From contig JAKLDR010000002.1 of assembly GCA_022703445.1 (NCBI GenBank), forward strand, positions 62,001 through 126,000: a stretch of DNA of 64,000 nt, given 5' to 3'. The notes under the pieces are model-generated. The model saw only the letters and a list, made by a program, of their open reading frames with translations, was not told where the DNA came from and did no database searches. A program made the position numbers and the translations under genes. Source of the stretch: Planctomycetota bacterium. GTDB taxonomy: Bacteria; Planctomycetota; SZUA-567; JAKLDR01. Position 1 is the first letter of the stretch. The number at the start of each line of letters is the position of its first letter. Shown here piece after piece: positions 7,299 to 62,235 of this stretch.

Positions 7299-9344
7299 AT
7301 GAAGCGCCCCGTCTTCCGCCACGTCCTCCCGCTCGTCCTGGCCCTGGCCGCGGCGCTGGGCGCGCTCCAGGCGCTCGGCTTCGTCAACCCCAACTTCACG
7401 CCCAAGAACGTGGAGGCGGCCTCCAAACTGATCTTCACCGTCCGCGTGGAGGCGCTCGACGCCGACGGCAAGGGTGCGACGCTGACCGTCGTCGAGGCGG
7501 TCAAGGGGCAGCTCGCCGCCAAGAAGCTGCGCCTCGACTTCAAGAGCGCCGCGGCCGACGGCAAGCTCGAGGACTTCATCGACCTGCTCAAGGCCGCCGG
7601 AACCCGGCCCGCCCTGATCGCCGCCGGCGAGTTCGAGGGCAAGGCCTGCGCGCTGATGCACGTGGAAGCCTGCTGGGCCCGGCTGGCCAAGGGCGCCGAC
7701 GACGCCACCTGGAGCTTCGACCGCATGGACGCGTCGCTCAACGGCACCTTCAACGGCGGCACGGACATGCTCATCGAGACCATGAAGTTCATCCGCAAGT
7801 TCCCCAGTGCGCCGATCATGCCGGTGGCCGGCGGCGTGCGCTGGAGCGAGCACACCAAGCTCGGCACGCTCCCGGGGAAGGCGGCGAGCCTCCAGGCGGC
7901 CGACGTCGACGCCGACGGGAAGCTCGACCTCTTCGCGGCCTGCCCGGAGGGCGACCGGATCCACCTCCAGAAGGCCGGCGGCAAGTTCGACGAGAAGGCG
8001 CTGGAGCCCGGTTCGAAGAGCCTGGCCGCCGCATGGGCGGACTTCGACGGCGACGGCCGGCCGGACCTGGCCTCGCTTGGGAAGGACGGCCCCGGACTCT
8101 GGCTCCAGAAGGAACCGGGCAAGTTTTCGGCGACGAATCTCCTTCAGGTTGGCGCGAAGCGCGCCCCGGTCGCAGCCGAGAACGCGAGCATCGGCATTGT
8201 TGACCTCGAACCCGACGGCAAGCCCGAGCTTGTGGTTTGCGCCGGAGGCACCCCGGTCATCTTCAAGAACGACGGCAAGGGCGGGTTCAGCGACGCGCTA
8301 CTCCCGGCGGAGGCCAAGCCGGTCGACCGCGGCCTCGCCGGCCCCTGCGTGGTGGCCGACTTCGACGCCGATGGCTTCGCCGACATTGTCCAGGTTTTCC
8401 AGAAGGGCGGCCTGCTCTGGAAGGGGCAGGCTGGCGGCTTCGCCGAACCGGCCGACTGCAACGCGCTCATGGGCAAGCCCAAGAGCCGCAACGCCTACGT
8501 GGCCGATATGGACGGCGACGGCCTGCTCGACATCTTCCTGATCGGCGGGGGCTCCACGCCCTACATGCTCCAGAACCGCGGCGGCGCGAAGTTCGAGGAG
8601 ACCATGCGCCTGACCGGCGAGCCCGGCTACATCATCCAGCCGGGCGCGTCCTGCGCGGCGCCGGGCGACTACAACAACGACACCTTCGCGGACGTCTACG
8701 TCGGCTACGAGGAGGAGCCGTCCCAGTCCTTCTTCAACCGCGGCTTCCGCAGCTTCGCCATCGACGAGACCCTCAAGTTCAAGAACGACGACCTGGCCGA
8801 CAGCGAGAAGGGCCAGGCGGCCATGGCCTGGGCGGACTTCGACGCCTCCGGCTCGCTGGAGCTGGTCACCGCGCTGGCCAACGGCGACCTGTACCTCTCA
8901 CGGACGGACCTCGGCCAGATGGACAAGCCCCTCTTCCTCCCGGTGCCGGTCCGGCCGGACGTCAAGTCCGCCGCGCCGGTCGTGGTCCGCTTCTACCTGG
9001 AGGGCCGCTGCCTGGGCGCGCGGACCGCCTCGCGCTTCGGCCCGCCGGCGCTCCTGGGCGTGCCGGAGCCCGGCGTCTACATCGTGAAGTACCGCGCCGA
9101 GGGCGGCAAGGAGGTCTCGTTCGAAATGGAGCCCGGCGCCAAGCCCGCGGCTCCCCCGAAGGGCCCGGATCCCAAGGCGGCGACGCCGGTTGCTCCGGGC
9201 ACACCAAGCGCCCCGCTCAGCAAGCCGGCGACCGCGGCCTCCTTCCTGAGGCTGTCCTGGGTGTTGGGCGGCACGCTGAGCTTGGCGGTCCTGTTGGTGT
9301 TGCTCGTCCTGTTCCGGAAGAAGAGTCCGCCCGCCGGGCAGTAA
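7299..9344 (+). CDS. FG-GAP/VCBS-repeat surface protein with C-terminal membrane anchor
   Basis: A 681-residue protein with AGGAG before ATG 7299. An N-terminal signal peptide (KRPVFRHVLPLVLALAAA) is followed by a domain of about 150 residues and at least seven FG-GAP/VCBS-type calcium-binding repeats recognisable by their D-x-D-x-D-G loops: DVDADGKLD, DFDGDGRPD, DLEPDGKPE, DFDADGFAD, DMDGDGLLD, DYNNDTFAD and DFDASGSLE. These repeats fold as an integrin-like beta-propeller. A Pro/Ala-rich linker (about 610-645) leads to one transmembrane helix (near 650-672) and a short basic tail (FRKKS), so the propeller is anchored outside the membrane. A weak TAGAAT at 7250-7255 may be its -10 box. Likely adhesion or binding; the partner is unknown. 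Confidence 0.85.
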   Translation: MKRPVFRHVLPLVLALAAALGALQALGFVNPNFTPKNVEAASKLIFTVRVEALDADGKGATLTVVEAVKGQLAAKKLRLDFKSAAADGKLEDFIDLLKAAGTRPALIAAGEFEGKACALMHVEACWARLAKGADDATWSFDRMDASLNGTFNGGTDMLIETMKFIRKFPSAPIMPVAGGVRWSEHTKLGTLPGKAASLQAADVDADGKLDLFAACPEGDRIHLQKAGGKFDEKALEPGSKSLAAAWADFDGDGRPDLASLGKDGPGLWLQKEPGKFSATNLLQVGAKRAPVAAENASIGIVDLEPDGKPELVVCAGGTPVIFKNDGKGGFSDALLPAEAKPVDRGLAGPCVVADFDADGFADIVQVFQKGGLLWKGQAGGFAEPADCNALMGKPKSRNAYVADMDGDGLLDIFLIGGGSTPYMLQNRGGAKFEETMRLTGEPGYIIQPGASCAAPGDYNNDTFADVYVGYEEEPSQSFFNRGFRSFAIDETLKFKNDDLADSEKGQAAMAWADFDASGSLELVTALANGDLYLSRTDLGQMDKPLFLPVPVRPDVKSAAPVVVRFYLEGRCLGARTASRFGPPALLGVPEPGVYIVKYRAEGGKEVSFEMEPGAKPAAPPKGPDPKAATPVAPGTPSAPLSKPATAASFLRLSWVLGGTLSLAVLLVLLVLFRKKSPPAGQ

Positions 9345-9385
9345 TCCGCAATCCTGGACGCCGAGAGGTTGTACGGTCGAGTGGC

Positions 9386-10681
9386 CTACTCTCTGGCGAT
9401 CTCCACCACCCGGCCCTCAAGCATGGCCGTGTCGGCCGCGAAGGCGATGAGGTGGCCGGTGAGCGAGTCCTCGATCCGCGTGGTGCTGATCGATGGCGGC
9501 TCGCCGCGGATCACCTTCACGAAGTCGGCGATCAGCCGCACGTCGCCGCCGCCGTGGCCGGCGCCGTCGCCGCCGACCGCCTCGTTGACGCTGATGACCT
9601 CCTCGGTGCAGTCGTCCGTCGTCGGTCGGAGGTCGGGGTGGCGCAGCCTGATGACCCCGTCCTCCATGTCGCCCTGGATCTCGCCTCTGGTGCCGATCAC
9701 GTGGATCTGGCGGGTGGGGCGGGCGGTGGCGCAGAACATGTCGTGGGTGGCGGTGGCGCCGTTGGCGAACTCCACCAGCACCGACTGGTGGTCGACCACG
9801 TCGTTGTCGCAGCGCCAGACGCAGCGGCCGTAGGGGCTCTCCCGGAGGTGTTCCAGGCGCATGGCGTCGGTGACCTCGCCGCGGCCCTGCAGCGGCTGGA
9901 AGACGTAGCCGCGCCAGCGGGACTTCTCCACGTAGAGCCGCCGGGCGGAGTAGGCGCACTCGCGCTCGATCCGGCAGTCGACCACGCAGCGCGTCCCCGA
10001 GCCGGCCGGGGCGTTCTCGGCGCGGAACTGCTTGAGGCTCCCGAAGCTCGAGACCCTCCTGGCGGGCACCCCGGACATCAGCCAGCCGACCACGTCCAGG
10101 TCGTGGCAGCACTTGGCCAGCAGCATGGGGCTGTTCTTGTCGCGGCGGTTCCAGCGGTCGCGCACGTAGCCGGTGGCCATGTGGTGGTAGCTGACCGCCT
10201 CGAGGGTGTTCATCGAGACGATCCCACCGATCCGGCCGTCGAGGATCAGCTGCTTGATCTTCGCGTAGAAGGGCGCGAAGCGCAGCACGTGGCCGACGAC
10301 CACCTTCCGGCCGTGCTGCTTCGCCGCGCCGATGATCCCGCGGACCTCGGCCTCGGTGTGGGCGATGGGCTTCTCGAGGAGCATGTGGTAGCCGGCGGCG
10401 AGCAGCGGCAGCGCCGACTTGTGGTGCAGCTGGTCGCGGGTGGCGTTGATCACCGCCTCGGCCACCGGCGCGCGCCGGGCCAGGTCCTCGTAGGACTCGA
10501 ACTGCATGTCCGCCGCGATGTCGTGCTTCTCGGAGATGATCCGGCGGTGGACGGGGTTGGGGTCGGCCACGGCCACGACCTTCATGCGCTCGGGGTGGTC
10601 GACGGCGTACTGGGTGTAGGCCTTGGAGCGCTGCCCTGCGCCCACCACCGCGACGGTCACGGGTCCGGAATGGCTGGCCAT
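9386..10681 (-). CDS. Gfo/Idh/MocA-family NAD(P)-dependent oxidoreductase
   Basis: A 431-residue protein. ATG 10681 is chosen because AGGAGGGG lies just upstream; an earlier in-frame ATG lacks such a site. The N-terminus is a Rossmann fold (VTVAVVGAGQRSKAY), followed by the family signature LLEKPIAHTEAEV near residue 115, where the Lys-Pro pair marks the active site region. The C-terminal alpha/beta domain contains HHMATGYVRDRWNRRDK and CCHDLDVVGW. Family members oxidise or reduce sugars, inositols and related polyols; the substrate cannot be read from sequence. It is transcribed towards the FG-GAP gene and away from the iron-sulfur flavoprotein gene. Confidence 0.92.
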   Translation of the reverse strand: MASHSGPVTVAVVGAGQRSKAYTQYAVDHPERMKVVAVADPNPVHRRIISEKHDIAADMQFESYEDLARRAPVAEAVINATRDQLHHKSALPLLAAGYHMLLEKPIAHTEAEVRGIIGAAKQHGRKVVVGHVLRFAPFYAKIKQLILDGRIGGIVSMNTLEAVSYHHMATGYVRDRWNRRDKNSPMLLAKCCHDLDVVGWLMSGVPARRVSSFGSLKQFRAENAPAGSGTRCVVDCRIERECAYSARRLYVEKSRWRGYVFQPLQGRGEVTDAMRLEHLRESPYGRCVWRCDNDVVDHQSVLVEFANGATATHDMFCATARPTRQIHVIGTRGEIQGDMEDGVIRLRHPDLRPTTDDCTEEVISVNEAVGGDGAGHGGGDVRLIADFVKVIRGEPPSISTTRIEDSLTGHLIAFAADTAMLEGRVVEIARE

Positions 10682-29916: not shown

Positions 29917-29946
29917 CGCCTGTCGCGAGGGGACGGAGGTGCAGCC

Positions 29947-30735
29947 GTGACTCGACTCCCGGGAGTTCCATTCATTGCCGCTCTTGTTGTTGCCGCCGCC
30001 TGCGCCGTCTCTGGCTGCTGGCTGCAGCGCGGGAGTCCTGCCGGCGCCGGTGGGAATGGCGAAGGTCTGGTGGTCGAGGCCGGATCCGCGCATGGCGCCA
30101 TGGCCTGGAAGAGCGGCCGGGGCGTCGTGATCCTCGACCAGCTCGACTGGTCCGGGCGCTACCTCGAAGCCGTTGGTCTGAAACTGGAGCGCCGCGACGG
30201 GGCCGTCCGCCTGCCGCACGAGGACCCCGAGCGCACCGCCGAGGCGCTGGCCGGGGCGGTACTGGCTCTGCGCCGGCGCATGGCGATCATCGCCGAGAAC
30301 GTGGCCAACGCCGAGACCGCCCGGATGCCGGGGGCGGCCGAGGCCGGCGCGCCCCCGCAGCCGTACCGGCGCAAGGTCCTGAACATCGGGGCGCTCGGCG
30401 CCCTGGAGGTGGCCGCCGACGGCTCGGCCTTCCGTCGGGTCTACCGTCCGGCCCACTCCGAAGCCGACAAGGACGGCCGCGTGCAGTTGCCCAACGTCTA
30501 CGTCGAGGTGGAGATGGCCGACTGGCGCTCGAGCGCCCGCGAGTACGAGTCGCTCCGCGGCGCCCTGGGGCTGGTCTCGACGCGCTATGCGGCGCCGCCG
30601 GCGGAACTGCTCCCCGTGCCCGTGCCGCCGCCGGCCTACGAGGAGAAGCCGGCGATCCCGGTGCCGGCCCCCGCGGCCCCCGAGGCCAAGCCGGTGCTGC
30701 CGACCCCGTCGCCGGTGCCGCCCAAGGCGCCTTAG
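29947..30735 (+). CDS. Lipoprotein with a FlgC-like flagellar rod domain
   Basis: A 262-residue protein; GGAGGT precedes GTG 29947. The N-terminus is a lipoprotein signal peptide ending in lipobox VSGC (Cys24). Residues about 100-215 read like the proximal rod proteins FlgC/FlgB: LAGAVLALRRRMAIIAENVA, NAETARM, PYRRKVLNI, VYRPAHSEADKDGRVQLPNV and EVEMADWRSSAREYESLRGA. In FlgC the same blocks are NxxNANT-like, PYRxK, ADxxGYVxxPN and the helix with a Tyr-Glu/Gln. The tail (217-262) is Pro/Ala-rich. Real FlgC is about 135 residues, has no signal peptide and is exported by the flagellar apparatus, so this is an unusual Sec-exported form. No other rod gene is nearby. Confidence 0.72.
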   Translation: MTRLPGVPFIAALVVAAACAVSGCWLQRGSPAGAGGNGEGLVVEAGSAHGAMAWKSGRGVVILDQLDWSGRYLEAVGLKLERRDGAVRLPHEDPERTAEALAGAVLALRRRMAIIAENVANAETARMPGAAEAGAPPQPYRRKVLNIGALGALEVAADGSAFRRVYRPAHSEADKDGRVQLPNVYVEVEMADWRSSAREYESLRGALGLVSTRYAAPPAELLPVPVPPPAYEEKPAIPVPAPAAPEAKPVLPTPSPVPPKAP

Positions 30736-60331: not shown

Positions 60332-60408
60332 CCGGGCACCCTCCTTGCGGGAAGAGCGACTCCCGACCATTGTCATCGGTCGTCTTCCCGGGAGGCATGA
60401 GGCGTAAA

Positions 60409-61788
60409 ATGCCGGAAATCCCGCAGAACCTGCCCTCCGCGCCCGGACCGGCCTTCAGCCTGCCCGAAGGCGCCCTGCCCGCGGGCCTTAAGGCCGGCGA
60501 CAGCCTGTCCGCCCGGGTGCTGGCCCAGGTGGCGGCCGGGCGCTTCGCCTTGTCCATCGGCGGGCGGGAGGTCCTGGCGGACTCCGCCGCGGCGCTCTCT
60601 CCCGGCGACCAGCTCCGCCTGGTCGTCCGCCAGGCTGGCAGCCGGGTGCTCATGGACCTGATCCCCATGGTCCGGGAGGACGCTTCGGGAGCAGCGGCGC
60701 CGGCCTCCGGCCAGGGAGCGGCGCCGCGCGGGCTGCAGGAGGGCCTGCAGAGCTTCCTCGGCGGCCGAGCCGCCGCCGGCGAGCTGCTGGCCGAAGCCTC
60801 CCGGCTGCTGGCCGCAGGCGGGACGGACGACCTGGCCGCCCGCGCCGGCGCCCTGGCCGCCGGGCCTGCCGCCGCCGCGGCGGGGGCCGAACCCAGCGCG
60901 GGCCTGGCCGGGGCCGTCGCGGCGCTGCCCGCGCAGGTCGGCGAGCTCCTGGCGGCGGTCGAGGCCCGCATGGCCGAGGCCGTCCGGGCGCTGCCCCAGG
61001 CCGCGGCCCTCGACGCGCTCGCCAACCTGCTGGCCTCCCTGCCCGCCGCCGAGCGGGGCTCGCCCGGAGGCGCCCCCGACCCCCGGCAGCTCGCCGGGCT
61101 GCTCGACCGGCTGCTGGCGGACCTCCGCGCGCAGGGGGGGCCGGACGCTCCGGCCGCCGGGCTGGCGCCCGGACTCCGCGCGGAGCTCGGGGCGCTCGGC
61201 CCCCGGGAGCTCGCCGACCTCCGGCTGCTGGCCGCCGAGCGCGAGCGCGCGGCGCTGGCCGCCTCGCCCCAGGTGGCGGCGCTCGCCGGCGCGCACCGGG
61301 CACTGACCGCCGCCCAGGATCGCCTCGACGCCGCGCGGCTCTGGAGCCTCTCGGCCTCGGGCCCCGGCGGGGCCTTCTCCTACGTCGAACTGCCCGGGGC
61401 CGGCGGACCGGACGGCGGCACCGCCGCGCTGCGGGTGCTGGTGCGCAGAAGCGGCGATGGCACCGGCTCCGGCGCCGGATCGCCCGGCCGCGGCCGGGGC
61501 TCGGTCCGCGCGGTGCTCGACCTGGACCTGTCCGCGCTGGGCGAGGTCCGGTCGGAGCTGGCGCTCTCCGGGCGCAGCCTGGCGGTGAAGCTGGAGCTCC
61601 CTGACCGCGAGCGCGGCGACCACGTGGCCGCCAGCCTGGGCGAGCTGGAAGACCGGCTGACGGCGCACGGTTTCGAGGCCAGCGTCAGCTCCACGGTCAC
61701 CGCCGGCCGCCGGAGGCGCGGGGGCGCGTCGGATCTTCCCGAGGCCGAAGGGGCCGCCGGGGGCGGAGGGCTGGACCTGTGGGCGTGA
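60409..61788 (+). CDS. FliK/YlqG-like flagellar hook-length control protein
   Basis: A 459-residue protein. ATG 60409 has GAGG six bases upstream; an earlier in-frame TTG at 60370 lies inside the other gene's ribosome-binding region. The N-terminal 330 residues are Ala/Gly/Leu-rich with SLSARVLAQVAAGRFALSIG, a pattern of secreted linker-type hook-length proteins. The C-terminal 110 residues (VLDLDLSALGEVRSELALSG, RSLAVKLELPD, LGELEDRLTAHGFEASV) match the folded FliK C-terminal domain, which switches export specificity. The next gene encodes an FlhB-like fragment, the natural partner; the pair resembles ylqG-ylqH of Bacillus. Confidence 0.75.
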   Translation: MPEIPQNLPSAPGPAFSLPEGALPAGLKAGDSLSARVLAQVAAGRFALSIGGREVLADSAAALSPGDQLRLVVRQAGSRVLMDLIPMVREDASGAAAPASGQGAAPRGLQEGLQSFLGGRAAAGELLAEASRLLAAGGTDDLAARAGALAAGPAAAAAGAEPSAGLAGAVAALPAQVGELLAAVEARMAEAVRALPQAAALDALANLLASLPAAERGSPGGAPDPRQLAGLLDRLLADLRAQGGPDAPAAGLAPGLRAELGALGPRELADLRLLAAERERAALAASPQVAALAGAHRALTAAQDRLDAARLWSLSASGPGGAFSYVELPGAGGPDGGTAALRVLVRRSGDGTGSGAGSPGRGRGSVRAVLDLDLSALGEVRSELALSGRSLAVKLELPDRERGDHVAASLGELEDRLTAHGFEASVSSTVTAGRRRRGGASDLPEAEGAAGGGGLDLWA

Positions 61789-61905: not shown

Positions 61906-62235
61906 ATGGCCGCGATCAACTTCGCCGGCCTCCCCCCGCCGCTCCGCCGGCGGCGAAGGGTTCCGCGCCAGGTGGCCGTGGCCCTCGGCTACGACCCGAC
62001 GGCCGGCCGCGGCGCCCCGGAGGTGCTGGCCAGCGGCGTGGGACTGATGGCCGGGCGGATCCTCGAGCGGGCCCGGGCCAGCGGCGTGCCGGTACACGAG
62101 GACGCGGACCTGGCCGAGGTGCTTGGCAGCCTGCCGGTCGGGGCGGACATACCGCCCGAGCTCTACGAGGCCGTCGCCGAGGTGCTGGCCTTCATCTACC
62201 GGATGAACGGGAGCTATGTCCCCGGCCGCCGCTAG
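61906..62235 (+). CDS. FlhB C-terminal-like protein (FhlB/YlqH type)
   Basis: A 109-residue protein. RQVAVALGYDPTAGRGAPEV, LMAGRILERARASGVPVHED and LPVGADIPPELYEAVAEVLA, FIYRM are the cytoplasmic substrate-specificity-switch domain of FlhB/YscU. The four membrane helices and the NPTH autocleavage site of full FlhB are absent, as in FhlB/YlqH proteins, which can partly substitute for the cleaved FlhB fragment. It would act at the flagellar export gate with the FliK-like protein upstream. No flhA or fliPQR is in the window. Confidence 0.88.
   Translation: MAAINFAGLPPPLRRRRRVPRQVAVALGYDPTAGRGAPEVLASGVGLMAGRILERARASGVPVHEDADLAEVLGSLPVGADIPPELYEAVAEVLAFIYRMNGSYVPGRR

Follow-up and report, generated by a model that had tools for sequence, protein, structure and literature searches.

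An exported FlgC-domain lipoprotein family of one Planctomycetota class that appears to work outside the flagellum

FlgC is a proximal rod protein of the flagellum that normally has no signal peptide and exits via the flagellar export gate, and yet the 64,000-nucleotide stretch of Planctomycetota DNA analysed here (hereafter, the window) encodes a protein in which a FlgC-like domain follows what looks like a lipoprotein signal peptide. The locus raises the question of what such a protein would do: an earlier note on this DNA suggested a docking ring component, an alternative rod base or a repurposed periplasmic protein. The window comes from contig C112 of a MAG of 6.0 Mb and 81% completeness (the window genome, G000), whose relatives are Planctomycetota MAGs; every genome compared below is a MAG.

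A FlgC domain behind a lipoprotein-type signal

The open reading frame at 29947–30735 is a genuine gene of 262 codons with a GTG start. Its features are as follows.

29935..29939 (+): ribosome binding site GGAGG, seven bases 5′ of the GTG start, by sequence
29947..30735 (+): coding region of the exported FlgC-domain lipoprotein (262 amino acids), from the reading frame, the codon GC pattern and nine further genomes with homologues
29947..30018 (+): signal peptide of lipoprotein type, its lipobox VSGC including Cys24 (codon at 30016–30018), from the motif and a modelled helix at residues 9–21; most relatives with a visible N-terminus also have a lipobox
30103..30216 (+): small beta-beta-alpha-beta-beta unit (residues 53–90) 5′ of the first rod helix, absent from canonical FlgC, from the AF2 model and its conservation among the fusion relatives
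30226..30576 (+): FlgC rod domain (residues 94–210), a small beta domain between two core helices with the C-terminal helix shortened, from TIGR01395 at residues 103–202 and Foldseek matches to FlgC
30580..30732 (+): Pro/Ala-rich tail (residues 212–262) specific to the window copy, from sequence and alignment

Read directly, the N-terminus (MTRLPGVPFIAALVVAAACAVSGC) has a positive start, a hydrophobic core and the lipobox VSGC with Cys24. On this call from motif and hydrophobicity, the protein looks like a Sec-type lipoprotein, which would carry its lipid on Cys24 and reside in the periplasm. The lipoprotein signal described in the earlier note is borne out by this motif and by similar starts in most relatives, every FlgC sequence block that it quoted is found in the protein, and the Pro/Ala-rich tail is present where the last rod helix has ended.

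The match to FlgC is not a chance one. NCBIfam TIGR01395 (FlgC) matches residues 103–202 with E=1.9e-16 and 60.6 bits, short of the curated equivalog cut-off of 102.1 bits; the Pfam Flg_bb_rod match (E=0.0019) falls slightly under its cut-off, and phmmer against Salmonella FlgC in PDB 7bin gives E=6.5e-7. An AF2 model, built from ten sequences, has pLDDT above 90 for most of residues 61–210 (76 at residues 121–140) and places helices at residues 94–120 and 186–210. The top Foldseek matches of this model are FlgC chains of 7cg0, 8wlh, 7bin and 8z5s (E 1e-6 to 8e-5; TM 0.66–0.73 by target length), called FlgC from chain lengths and names, with 7bin chain V being FlgC in the phmmer search, and all ten matches with E<0.001 come from flagellar rod structures. 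The structural comparison proposed in the earlier note therefore leads to FlgC, and its FlgC-like rod domain is upheld by profile, structure and relatives together; we regard this domain identity as nearly certain.

The window protein shares its fold and order of elements with FlgC (TIGR01395; PDB 7cg0, 7bin), as well as the motifs EN.ANA, PYRRK, Y.P...AD..G.V..PNV and EMAD, but differs in its lipoprotein signal, extra small N-terminal unit, shortened C-terminal core helix and Pro/Ala tail. The core helix is taken as shortened because TIGR01395 is matched no further than model position 117 of 137 and the second helix stops at residue 210, followed by AAPP. The unit at residues 53–90 is not mentioned in the earlier note. 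The modelled secondary structure is alike in the two small domains ahead of the rod helices; a reading of the two as one duplicated unit gained no support from hhalign and was dropped.

The surroundings of the gene also differ from those of flgC. ClpB and SelO adjoin it on the opposite strand, an FAD-linked oxidase and a URO-D protein lie downstream, and it has no flagellar neighbours, flgB and fliE included. The flagellar cluster of the window genome is on C304, with canonical flgC, fliG and flhA and, by reading, flgB, fliE and fliF. Directly before flgB come genes for a sigma54 regulator and an apparent kinase, and flgB has a near-perfect sigma54 site (TGGCACAAGTCTTGCA) upstream; for the family gene, no sigma54 promoter of its own was found above shuffled expectation. 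Sigma54-type promoter sites in this genome lie upstream of flgB (L046, 11034) and of flgF/flgG (L123, 8501). The protein does not qualify as FlgC proper, given its score under the cut-off, its export route, its operon setting, its core helix and its co-occurrence, the family being found without any flagellum. Two other window genes sit apart from the main cluster on C304: a FliK-like hook-length protein (60370–61788, +; Flg_hook E=4.6e-5, under cut-off), followed by a 109-residue FlhB C-terminal-domain protein of FlhX type (61906–62235, +; TIGR00789 E=1.5e-24).

One clade of fused rod domains, often beside a kinase pair

Relatives of the window protein are encoded in nine other genomes of the class, giving ten carriers in all, spread over four families of one Planctomycetota class. 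Members from the other three families are longer proteins (about 490–680 residues in complete frames) that consist of a signal, a degenerate FlgF/FlgG domain and the FlgC domain; the window copy is the FlgC half only, with the FlgF/G half missing. In G002 the first half matches NCBIfam flgF (4.3e-11) and FlgEFG (1e-7), with weaker NCBIfam FlgG and FlgF matches in G007, G011 and G013. Foldseek also matches the first half to FlgG, at 3e-8, from a model of low overall confidence (pTM 0.37). This half resembles the FlgF/FlgG rod proteins (TIGR02490, TIGR02488, TIGR03506) in its G.PLD.A motif, D1-like beta domain and LE.P..D end, but is degenerate and fused ahead of FlgC in one exported chain. The G005 relative has a signal-like start that is missing the Cys. 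In the G003 copy (L041, about 7990–9727) the lipobox N-terminus is in another frame than the remainder, pointing to a gene broken by a frameshift or to an assembly error. Neither the FlgF/G–FlgC tandem nor the linkage to two-component genes described below is visible from the window sequence.

In a tree, the ten exported FlgC domains form one group (support 100/99), separate from 37 canonical FlgCs. The fusion was not found outside the class in a sample of 392 genomes from the phylum; a degenerate-pattern scan across about 85,000 species genomes, which reaches fairly close relatives only, returned class members and one canonical FlgC. No precedent was found in a literature search that covered few subscription papers.

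In five genomes (G005, G007, G013, G015 and G019) the family gene is followed directly by genes for a membrane histidine kinase and an NtrC-type regulator; as scanned with Pfam in G013, the kinase has HAMP, HisKA and HATPase domains and the regulator has receiver, sigma54 and HTH_8 domains. In G002 too the pair is near the family gene, separated from it by a gene for a large AAA/GGDEF-type protein and by what reads as a prolyl-tRNA synthetase gene, such that direct linkage spans two families and near-linkage a third. The window genome encodes its kinase orthologue on C302 (38% identity over 2–476), with the pair not adjacent to the lipoprotein gene; there the contig end truncates the regulator (60% identity across 85 residues). 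The kinase periplasmic domain measures about 110–125 residues in the carrier lineages versus about 20 in seven f2 genomes without the lipoprotein, a size correlation confounded with shared descent. No kinase orthologue was detected in the carriers G003, G011 and G017. The association of lipoprotein and kinase pair is real, not obligate and confounded with descent. In G009 (L168, G009:C84, 6803–9749) the pair stands beside lexA with no lipoprotein between, an apparent clean gene loss.

A histidine kinase and an NtrC-type sigma54 regulator are likewise tied genetically to a rod-type protein in FlgSR, FlrBC and FleSR. The activity of those systems requires the flagellar export system, MS ring and rotor (PMC7064773), whereas the family's kinase pair is present in G005, G009, G013, G015 and G019, all without FlhA and FliG, and a different pair adjoins flgB in the window genome.

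We suggest that the window gene encodes a Sec-exported, lipid-anchored envelope protein on a genuine FlgC rod domain, belonging to a family, so far seen only in this class, that would have departed from the flagellum and in most of whose members one signal peptide precedes a fusion of a degenerate FlgF/FlgG domain with a FlgC domain. Such a protein would not require the flagellar export gate and, with its shortened core helix, is probably not built into a rod. Its anchored rod domain in the periplasm may instead act as a sensor or adaptor that governs the activity of the membrane histidine kinase and sigma54 response regulator, through a presumed contact with the kinase and with a putative regulon downstream. 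The carriers with no kinase orthologue detected, the G009 pair without a lipoprotein and the non-adjacent pair of the window genome speak against such a partnership. We put forward this whole explanation tentatively, as the leading candidate; the partner role towards the kinase, taken by itself, is a plausible suggestion that we hold with slightly more reserve.

The main rival to an input into the kinase is a structural one, in which the rod-derived domains of an envelope lipoprotein self-assemble or space the membrane from the wall and the two-component genes are mere operon neighbours. The rod fold is an assembly fold, the protein is kept in the three carriers without a detected kinase, and the other anchored FlgG-like proteins of the phylum (below) have no adjoining kinase, all of which fits a structural role; against it, this protein has a shortened C-terminal core helix, the element that packs the interior of a rod, and linkage to the kinase pair is conserved across two families with near-linkage in the third. 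We consider a purely structural role possible but somewhat doubtful.

Carriers without a flagellum

Whether the family still serves the flagellum can be judged from the genomes that carry it. In this class of 29 genomes, FlhA, FliG and canonical FlgC are all absent from six of the ten carriers (G005, G011, G013, G015, G017 and G019, with completeness of 93, 88, 80, 86, 79 and 61%, respectively), and canonical FlgG was not found in any of the six. With three markers missing in all six at those completeness values, incompleteness is implausible as the cause. Family and flagella occur together in the window genome, G002, G003 and G007; in the relatives examined, the family gene is not part of a flagellar cluster, and the protein is missing from most of the flagellated genomes in the class (families f2 and f6). 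Two f6 genomes (G024 and G025) are missing an FlhA match with FliG present, which completeness of 64 and 73% may explain.

Between G013 and G019, which belong to a flagellum-less genus, the dN/dS of the FlgC half is 0.07 and that of the FlgF/G half 0.26, compared with 0.12 in the kinase and 0.10 in the regulator; these Nei–Gojobori values are rough, as synonymous divergence is about 1 or more. The FlgC half, at about 0.07, is under strong purifying selection in this genus. Since strong selection is kept in relatives that lost the flagellum, the family protein appears to have a second, non-motility job. The six carriers without flagellar markers and the low dN/dS together indicate that a rod protein has found a new use in the envelope and is not a general flagellar docking part or a relic, and we consider it highly probable that the family is independent of the flagellum.

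A flagellar accessory, acting as docking ring or alternative rod base and merely retained by the flagellum-less carriers, is improbable. Flagella in the window genome and three other carriers speak for such a role; the absence of the export gate, FliG and canonical FlgC rules it out as a general one, and the selection in the flagellum-less genus, the scarcity of the protein among f2 and f6 members and the lack of a sigma54 site such as flgB has weigh against it further. Two of the three suggestions in the earlier note, docking ring component and alternative rod base, are accordingly unlikely as general functions, given these six carriers and a gene outside flagellar clusters, leaving the repurposed periplasmic protein as the only one standing. 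That note had also held that a rod-like reading would be in trouble if the fusion occurred in genomes lacking flagellar or export-gate genes and had a different predicted fold: the survey of relatives found the family without an export gate, and the fold stays a rod fold.

A decaying relic of flagellar genes, to which the fast FlgF/G half (missing in the window copy) and the frame mismatch in G003 could point, is already largely refuted and very improbable, ruled out by the dN/dS of the FlgC half and intact frames (full in G002, G005, G007, G011, G013 and G017) in one clade that spans four families with its signal peptides kept.

Other anchored rod proteins and an apparent reuse of the rod

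Anchored rod-type proteins other than the window family occur elsewhere in the phylum. Family f36 has a lipoprotein that combines a coiled-coil-like segment with a FlgG-like domain (flgG profile, 5.5e-42), and family f30 has a transmembrane-anchored FlgG-like protein (1.2e-46 in L122 and L140; degenerate in L141); both kinds come from genomes that also have canonical rod genes, and no kinase pair lies directly beside either.

L134 8900–9976; L135 8698–9876; L137 3–2294: f36 FlgG-like lipoproteins
L122 8076–9737; L140 8617–10410; L141 9246–10577: f30 FlgG-like proteins that have a long linker and are encoded amid housekeeping genes

The window assembly itself contains a second rod-type lipoprotein (L120, G000:C186, 1222–2247) with lipobox VAGC and a nearly complete FlgG domain (1.1e-50), nearest to the window genome's own FlgG (48%). 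The short contig C186 has a GC content of 63.6%, versus about 71% for the genome, and its 118-base repeats were not found on the other contigs of the window genome examined, which makes its membership in this genome uncertain.

Flagellar axial proteins may have been reused as membrane-anchored envelope proteins, sensory or structural and flagellum-independent, with anchoring more than once in Planctomycetota, to give three anchored kinds: the FlgF/G–FlgC lipoprotein clade, the coiled-coil FlgG-like lipoprotein and the transmembrane-anchored FlgG-like protein. We see this broader picture, repeated anchoring and three kinds together, as evenly balanced between right and wrong. FlgP and FlgT-type flagellar lipoproteins are exported, located in the envelope and serve the flagellum; the window protein would be like them in export and envelope location, and we know of no rod domain in FlgP or FlgT-type factors.

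Non-flagellar type III secretion is a known reuse of flagellar parts, in which the export core is reused (PMC3459982). The window family is similar in that flagellar genes were taken over for another job, but here it is the rod genes that are reused and the export core that is absent. Rod proteins can, on this evidence, switch export route from the flagellar gate to apparent Sec export and lipidation and still be strongly selected after motility is lost. flgB, flgC and fliE have served as flagellum-only markers in searches for non-flagellar type III secretion (PMC3459982); a FlgC-domain match in genome surveys is, however, no proof of a flagellum. The tie to a sigma54 two-component pair makes the function of the window family directly testable.
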